NCBI RefSeq assembly: GCF_001457415.1
Contig: NZ_LN881724.1
Location: 1,984,001 to 2,048,000 of the forward strand
DNA length: 64,000 bases
Reading direction: 5' to 3'
Source of the DNA: Gorillibacterium timonense
GTDB taxonomy: Bacteria > Bacillota > Bacilli > Paenibacillales > NBRC-103111
Within the stretch, counting starts at the first letter, position 1, and the number at the start of each line of letters is the position of its first letter. The notes beneath the pieces are model-generated. The model was given only the letters and a program-made list of their open reading frames with translations. It made no database searches and was not told the DNA's origin. Below, piece by piece: positions 58,680 through 58,823 of this stretch. The translations under genes were made by a program, and so were the position numbers.

Positions 58680-58696
58680 CGTTATGTTTGTTAACA
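58680..58696 (-). promoter_or_regulatory. GlnR-like box II, downstream of the anfH promoter
   Basis: On the minus strand TGTTA-ACAAACA-TAACG matches TGTNA-N7-TNACA at 7 of 8 fixed positions. It covers about +26 to +42 relative to the predicted start, a place where bound GlnR would block transcription. Confidence 0.7.
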
Positions 58697-58728
58697 TCAA
58701 CATGTTGCTTGTTTGTTGGATTACACCT

Positions 58729-58758
58729 ATACTAGCGAGATTTACCGGAAAACGTCAA
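58729..58758 (-). promoter_or_regulatory. anfH promoter (sigma-A type)
   Basis: TTGACG (58753-58758), an 18-bp spacer and TAGTAT (58729-58734) on the minus strand, start predicted near 58722. No -24/-12 sigma-54 element was found in the region. Confidence 0.7.
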
Positions 58759-58806
58759 TAAAGTAAGCGCTTCACGAAAACGGATTAGAAATATGTACAA
58801 AATTAA

Positions 58807-58823
58807 TGTTAGATTATATTACA
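58807..58823 (-). promoter_or_regulatory. GlnR box I, upstream of the anfH promoter
   Basis: On the minus strand TGTAA-TATAATC-TAACA fits TGTNA-N7-TNACA at all fixed positions. It ends 48 bp upstream of the -35, about -85 to -101 from the predicted start, consistent with an activating GlnR site as in Paenibacillus nif promoters. Confidence 0.85.

Follow-up and report, generated by a model that had tools for sequence, protein, structure and literature searches.

A probable GlnR-controlled promoter for the Fe-only nitrogenase operon of Gorillibacterium timonense and its counterparts across Paenibacillales

Introduction

In the Paenibacillus nitrogenase literature, GlnR is described as a regulator of Mo-nif (accessible text of PMC3961195, PMC8287671, PMC10789242, PMC6191146, PMC9948412, PMC13084045, PMC12843690, PMC10521693, and PMC13327599). 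According to the available part of PMC6191146, the P. polymyxa WLY78 nif promoter has site I 58 bp ahead of its -35 hexamer, a distance of 118 bp between the two sites, and site II 24 bp past the transcription start; the two-site layout works there, and a looping model for the two sites is disputed. The box bound by Bacillus GlnR and TnrA, TGTNAN7TNACA, is cited in the accessible text of PMC9948412. For the Fe-only nitrogenase, the available part of PMC7294313 describes control of Rhodobacter capsulatus anfHDGK by AnfA and RpoN, with TAC-N6-GTA as the consensus of the AnfA-binding site and with repression of anfA by MopA and MopB in the presence of Mo. For the Fe-only genes of P. sonchi, a 2024 review states, in its accessible text, that the response to Mo limitation 'does not involve GlnR', and calls the mechanisms of both nitrogen and Mo control elusive (PMC10789242). 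TaoR-type W/Mo regulators, which combine an HTH with a PBP-like domain, are named in the available part of PMC11980592.

Two-site GlnR control is therefore known, and an alternative nitrogenase as its target is undescribed in the accessible literature. No GlnR site at an anf or vnf promoter is reported in the accessible passages of these papers, supplements and most subscription papers apart, and priority is accordingly unproven. In this study, we describe the promoter region of the anf operon in a window of 64,000 nucleotides (the whole stretch of Gorillibacterium timonense DNA that was analysed) together with the corresponding promoters of related bacteria. The genome is 5.26 Mb in size and 99.97% complete, and its relatives place it in the order Paenibacillales, in a family labelled f1.

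Results

The anf locus

The assignment of the operon to the Fe-only nitrogenase, as given in the original prediction, was borne out by profile searches, in which AnfD, AnfG, and AnfK all scored above the curated NCBIfam equivalog cut-offs. All genes of the set lie on the minus strand, with anfHDGK spanning 54305-58507 and the nifB, nifE-like, and nifN genes spanning 49642-53723. The anfH gene (57683-58507, ATG at 58507) matched over the cut-off of the general nifH model only, and is followed by anfD (56089-57648; TIGR01861, 1095 bits, cut-off 874), anfG (55719-56069; TIGR02929, 170 bits, cut-off 125), and anfK (54305-55693; TIGR02931, 921 bits, cut-off 854). Downstream of these and of a HEPN-domain gene (53825-54223; PF05168, 23.1 bits, cut-off 22) are the co-directional nifB2 (52392-53723; TIGR01290, 544 bits), a nifE2-like gene (50963-52540; TIGR01283, 414 bits, under the cut-off of 505) with an uncertain true start, as its open reading frame overlaps nifB2, and nifN2 (49642-50985; TIGR01285, 330 bits, cut-off 327). 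In L013-L021, nine named loci of Paenibacillaceae, nifN2 is always upstream of anfH.

The 600 bp upstream of nifB2 contain no GlnR box at a tolerance of one mismatch, which suggests that nifB2 is possibly transcribed from the anfH promoter. Judging from direction and spacing, this promoter may drive the whole set through nifBEN, with the caution that a terminator-like hairpin at 54253-54272 speaks against read-through into nifBEN. Another such hairpin (58974-58994, minus strand) separates a PNPOx-like gene from the anfH promoter; terminator-like hairpins as a class are no more frequent there than chance predicts (5 found against 6.0 expected).

Several other features of the locus deserve mention. 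The HEPN-domain gene follows anfK in the window and in 9/9 of the named Paenibacillaceae anf loci (L013-L021), with 60-66% identity, and was not found in nine other anf loci (L022-L030, where L023 ends within anfK); it is thus an unexplained anf accessory gene that is anf-linked in Paenibacillaceae. The PNPOx-like gene and a class-I glutamine amidotransferase gene (59038-60304 of the window) accompany anf in many loci of Firmicutes: among L013-L021, one locus of which is incomplete, the amidotransferase gene is present in 8/9 and the PNPOx gene in 7/9, and both are near anf in several of L022-L030. Two NifX-like genes, at 49188-49589 on the plus strand and 60301-60702 on the minus strand, flank the anf/nifBEN set, and they score 100.5 and 91.8 bits, both under the NifX equivalog cut-off of 112. 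As to a riboswitch, the region 49000-61000 has no Rfam match at a family's gathering score, the sole listed match being a weak one at 57725-57773 (19.7 bits, gathering score 39, E 0.15), and the 218-nt leader folds modestly better than its shuffles (z -1.98, 9/200 as good).

Two GlnR boxes around a sigma-70-type promoter

A perfect minus-strand GlnR box upstream of the anfH -35 hexamer had been predicted, and it is present: site I, TGTAATATAATCTAACA, runs from 58823 to 58807 (58807..58823, minus strand) with no mismatch to TGTNAN7TNACA, and is taken here as the putative activation site. Equally present, just downstream of the -10 hexamer, is the predicted one-mismatch box, site II (TGTTAACAAACATAACG, 58696 to 58680, minus strand), the putative repression site. 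The two sites are 127 bp apart from start to start and 110 bp from edge to edge. Between them, on the same strand, lies a sigma-70-type sequence with 9/12 consensus bases, TTGACG-N18-TAGTAT, whose -35 hexamer (58753-58758) is 48 bp from site I and whose -10 hexamer (58729-58734) follows after an 18-bp spacer. At this promoter the best candidate for a -24/-12 element has four mismatches. A near-palindrome, TGAAGCGCTTAC, at 58763-58774 just ahead of the -35 hexamer resembles TGTAAGCGTTACA, which directly precedes the -35 hexamer of the Mo-nif promoter of the same genome.

The case for these boxes rests on position and conservation, not on number. The single perfect GlnR box in the 64-kb window compares with 0.45 expected, and the 11 boxes with at most one mismatch compare with 12.9 expected, so that neither count is above chance; likewise, the stretch scanned holds six promoter-like matches as against 4.5 +- 2.3 in shuffles. 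Over the whole genome, the perfect box occurs 46 times and the reversed pattern 25 times. The pair found here, a perfect box with a second one of no more than one mismatch 110-139 bp farther on, did not arise in any of 5000 dinucleotide-shuffled versions of the 450-bp upstream region.

Conservation in Paenibacillales

For comparison, we searched for AnfD and VnfD in three overlapping sets of genomes, and obtained close matches in 4/104 genomes of the family, in 16/392 genomes of the order (an even sample of a larger group), and in 15/100 genomes of one genus. The 16 genomes from the order search and four more from the genus search of 100 gave 20 distinct promoters, 17 anf and 3 vnf; judged by their last 150 bp, nine of them recur as the loci L013-L021. 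Every one of the 20 promoters carries, 242-357 bp upstream of the H gene, a GlnR box with no more than one mismatch, and in 17/20 this box is perfect. Shuffles of the same 450-bp regions gave on average 4.6 (at most one mismatch) and 0.18 (perfect) of 20, a comparison to be read with the promoters being mutually related, so that the counts are not independent events. Two boxes 126-127 bp apart, with at most two mismatches in all, were found in 12 promoters and in none of 100 shuffles.

For the comparison outside the order, the best 80 of 177 loci were retained, of which 71 remained besides the duplicates L013-L021 and 65 could be compared, five having no or only a partial anfH and one (L078) being too short. 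Among these 65 anfH upstream regions from the best 80 of 177 loci, the box is perfect in two and has at most one mismatch in 12. Both perfect boxes belong to the group of 18 other Firmicutes, which was assigned by record titles, and none of the 47 non-Firmicutes regions has one. A -24/-12 site, on the other hand, is found within one mismatch in 37/47 and within two in 45/47 of the non-Firmicutes regions, as against 0/20 within one mismatch at the Paenibacillales anf/vnf promoters, where L019 alone has one at two mismatches. The prediction that the Fe-only system is wired to GlnR thus gains support from the boxes at 20/20 promoters, while the arrangement is common to the order and not special to this genome.

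Two classes of promoter

Twelve of the promoters, which we call class A, come from two families and comprise nine anf promoters, including that of the window, and three vnf promoters. Their order is site I, 48 bp, -35 hexamer, 16-18 bp, -10 hexamer, about 31 bp, and site II, where the hexamers are the best-scoring ones within a fixed stretch; the 48-bp gap to the best-scoring -35 hexamer is found in 12/12. Site II begins 126 or 127 bp from site I and has at most two mismatches in 11/12 (at most one in nine, two in L122 and L132, and three in L019). The remaining eight promoters, all anf (L013, L014, L016, L021, L123, L125, L126, and L127), form class B, in which the distance from the start of site I to TTGACA-N16-TATGAT (11/12 consensus bases) is 191-192 bp in 8/8 and a second GlnR-like sequence with 1-3 mismatches overlaps the -35 hexamer. 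The 12 promoters with boxes 126-127 bp apart are therefore 11 of class A together with L014 of class B, and the class A promoter that does not pass this test is that of L019. The predicted two-site layout accordingly stands for the window and for 10 other class A promoters, and the flanking arrangement does not extend to 8/20 of the set. Cre-like half-sites are seen between the GlnR box and the promoter in most class B promoters.

Two further elements recur in class A. In the window, a GAAAGCG element (58853-58868, minus strand) precedes the start of site I by 45 bp, and GAAARCG is found at -44 or -45 relative to site I in 12/12 class A promoters; by its consensus, this element may be cre-like. 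The other is a conserved block, roughly AATTTTGAATWWAYTGTTTT, common to class A anf and vnf promoters, which lies just after site I and is degenerate in the genome of the window (58785-58805, minus strand); in the promoter alignment, L001 was moved by one base from column +105 on, allowing for its spacing of 127. A pattern built from eight class A promoters has exactly one match per genome, at the anf/vnf promoter, in 8/8 Paenibacillus genomes. This block may be a factor site or may reflect shared ancestry. With one mismatch allowed, the pattern has 15 matches elsewhere in eight Paenibacillus genomes (L219-L233) as against 4 for the reversed pattern, which are possibly further targets of some factor and possibly chance.

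Relation to the Mo-nif promoter

Thirty nifB loci were fetched, eight of which carry a close Mo-type nifH (L148-L151 and L164-L167); the other 22, some of them with boxes, represent further nifB copies and were left out of the comparison. A pair of GlnR boxes is present in 7/8 of the Mo-type loci, and L164 has a single box. In the Mo-nif promoter of the window genome itself, TTGACG follows site I after a 48-bp gap, and site II is 127 bp away from site I. In three other genomes of family f1 the gap is also 48 bp and the sites are 119 bp apart, and in three Paenibacillus genomes the gap is 59 bp and the sites are 135-137 bp apart. Bearing on looping, the spacings of 119, 127, and 135-137 bp do not share one helical phase. 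A GAAARCG or GGAAACG element was found at -23 or -24 in 5/6 nifB promoters, a scan that, with that for the -35 hexamer, took in six of the seven paired promoters and omitted L167.

Between the boxes, the anf and nif promoters of the window genome have 51/110 ungapped identities, as against 31.1 +- 4.7 in shuffles, of which 1/5000 was as high. Much of this excess lies in the 48-bp gap (22/48, shuffles 14.5) and in the hexamers. The segment from the -10 hexamer to site II (10/31, shuffles 9.4) and the 18-bp spacer are at or near the shuffle level. The likeness fits the capture of a nif-type promoter, and it would fit convergence on a constrained layout as well.

Regulators encoded in the genome

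In this genome, the genes for GlnR (139 aa) and glutamine synthetase are neighbours, and a perfect GlnR box precedes them; among PDB entries, the two proteins match best to GlnR (4r4e) and to glutamine synthetase (7tfa). The RpoN DNA-binding domain PF04552 has no match genome-wide, and it matches in 4/14 control genomes. ModE_repress (TIGR00637) likewise has no match in the genome, the controls matching in 7/14 and exceeding the cut-off in 2; ModE control was rejected for lack of such a match. Six Sigma54_activat matches pass the Pfam cut-off, with 24-46 bits, and all 14 control genomes match too; from their sequences, the six appear to be proteins of the Lon, ClpC, RarA, ClpB, MoxR, and ComM types. 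The prediction had noted neither an anfA gene nor a -24/-12 promoter here, and the lack of the proteobacterial machinery extends to the whole genome, which has no match to RpoN or ModE and in which the Sigma54_activat matches appear to be other AAA+ proteins. The proteobacterial route is therefore very unlikely in this genome.

Two perfect GlnR boxes are seen upstream of a PII gene adjoining the Mo-nif cluster, at L108:14970-15058 (G000:C6:330969-331057). A further perfect box, at L108:16237-16253, coincides in part with the modA ribosome-binding site; it could be a chance product of GAGGAGG, or could link nitrogen status to Mo uptake.

A protein with HTH_17 and PBP-like domains is encoded divergently from modA (L108:15063-16043). 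All 16 anf/vnf genomes in the order sample have such a TaoR-like gene, yet so do 275/392 genomes overall, so that its co-occurrence with anf/vnf says little. A presumed operator motif of 21 bp was fitted on, and then scored on, the same 18 non-redundant regions upstream of TaoR-like genes, which come from 30 fetched loci among the 275 matching genomes. It scores 19.6-30 in 15/18 of these regions and 5.8-9.2 in L199, L204, and L205, which are three of the five anf/vnf genomes among the motif loci; the motif test is thus weak for those three, as even their regulator genes are without the motif. At the 20 anf/vnf promoters the highest score is 8.3 (L129), as against a maximum of 8.1 in 100 mononucleotide shuffles of the window region only, and in the window genome the score is 21.7 at the regulator gene and -4.1 at anf. 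Direct control of anf by the TaoR-like regulator through this presumed motif was rejected, the motif being present at 0/20 promoters.

Discussion

Since a GlnR box is present at all 20 anf/vnf promoters of Paenibacillales, control of these promoters by GlnR is, as far as sequence can tell, very likely. GlnR binding, activation at site I, and repression at site II are inferred from P. polymyxa nif. By analogy with that system, we consider it probable that anfHDGK is under GlnR control, with site I activating, site II repressing, and, more speculatively, Mo acting through nitrogen status. The operon, possibly together with the HEPN-domain gene and nifBEN, would be transcribed from a GlnR-controlled promoter of the sigma-A type. 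When nitrogen is limiting, RNA polymerase would be assisted by GlnR bound at site I (58807-58823), whose distance to the -35 hexamer is fixed at 48 bp. Under nitrogen excess, feedback-inhibited glutamine synthetase would tighten the binding of GlnR, and an occupied site II (58680-58696), about 25 bp into the transcript, would stop transcription. As to Mo, one may speculate that the promoter needs no dedicated sensor, in that a working Mo-nitrogenase would raise glutamine and anf expression would then fall. Against the proposal, L019 lacks site II, class B (8/20) lacks the flanking layout, and the accessible text of the P. sonchi review speaks against GlnR in the response to Mo limitation (PMC10789242).

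Expression data also bear on the proposal. In P. forsythia T98, the nifB2 adjacent to anf is high in both Mo- and Fe-dependent fixation as compared with N-rich controls, and is higher in the Fe-dependent one (accessible text of PMC8287671). This strain is the source of the record behind L017, a class A locus whose nifB2 lies upstream of anfH, so that the evidence is indirect for the anfH promoter. Such a pattern fits graded rather than absolute control by Mo through nitrogen status, which is the reading we favour. Extended to the order, this becomes a metal hierarchy in Paenibacillales without a metal sensor at the anf/vnf promoters, Mo being read through nitrogen status, with the alternative that the class A block is the site of an undescribed Mo-responsive factor; we put this forward tentatively and regard it as somewhat doubtful.

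A related possibility is that GlnR sets the nitrogen response while a dedicated factor represses at the promoter in the presence of Mo, for example via the block or GAAARCG. The block is kept in class A anf and vnf promoters alike, its pattern occurs once per genome and at the anf/vnf promoter in 8/8 Paenibacillus genomes, and the 15 one-mismatch matches (4 for the reversed pattern) could be other targets of such a factor; moreover, P. forsythia T98 and P. zanthoxyli JH29 show higher levels of the anf- or vnf-linked nifB2 when Mo is absent (accessible text of PMC8287671). Yet the block is degenerate in the very genome studied here, a single match per genome fits shared ancestry equally well, GAAARCG-type elements are also found at nif promoters, ModE has no match, and the presumed TaoR-like motif is at 0/20 promoters. 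We hold a dedicated Mo factor to be rather unlikely. A different view is that the layout was inherited from a captured nif-type promoter and is only partly functional, site II being perhaps a relic. The identity of 51/110 with the nif promoter (31.1 +- 4.7 in shuffles, 1/5000 as high) and the loss of site II in L019 are in keeping with it. Against it, the spacings are held while the 18-bp spacer and the segment from the -10 hexamer to site II resemble nif only at or near the shuffle level; a geometry held this strictly while the sequence diverges is a sign of function, and inheritance without full function seems unlikely to us.

The remaining alternatives concern the promoter itself. TGGAAA-N18-TATAAT (58842-58813) lies farther upstream and overlaps site I, and scores 10/12, one above the inner promoter; if this were the true promoter, site I would be a repressor site. 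The remaining 11 promoters of class A reach 3-7/12 at the corresponding position, while all 12 retain the inner -35 position, which makes the outer promoter highly improbable. To control of the proteobacterial type, by AnfA and sigma-54, we give virtually no weight. Six Sigma54_activat matches (24-46 bits) are present, but they are read as other AAA+ proteins; a genome that is 99.97% complete has no RpoN DNA-binding domain, which 4/14 controls do match, and no -24/-12 site within one mismatch is found at the Paenibacillales anf/vnf promoters.

If Mo does act through nitrogen status, the choice among Mo, V, and Fe would be read out as nitrogen status, with Fe-only and V systems on GlnR promoters of the Mo-nif design. 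The alternative nitrogenase would apparently be wired to the host's own nitrogen regulator instead of NifA, AnfA, and RpoN, and this would be useful for running a Mo-free nitrogenase in Gram-positive hosts. The rigid cis-layout recurring across the order makes the switching-on of backup nitrogenases directly testable.

Among described systems, the closest parallel is P. polymyxa WLY78 Mo-nif. In both, a sigma-70-type promoter is flanked by site I upstream and by site II some 25 bp past the transcription start, and genes for GlnR and glutamine synthetase are present; set against the figures in the accessible text of PMC6191146, the predicted likeness to the Paenibacillus Mo-nif layout is accurate. 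The differences are that the putative target here is an Fe-only nitrogenase (and a V nitrogenase in relatives), that the gap is 48 bp here and 58 bp there, with a start-to-start spacing of 126-127 bp at the anf/vnf sites, and that site I is perfect here and divergent and TnrA-like there. With the GlnR/TnrA regulons of Bacillus the promoter shares the same box, the target here being an alternative nitrogenase. The TaoR-type regulators match the HTH_17 and PBP-like protein of this genome in domain make-up, whereas the presumed operator motif of that protein is absent from the anf/vnf promoters. Finally, R. capsulatus anf is alike in its target operon and in its nitrogen and Mo inputs; unlike that system, this one has GlnR boxes, and neither RpoN nor a ModE-type repressor nor an AnfA-like activator was detected.
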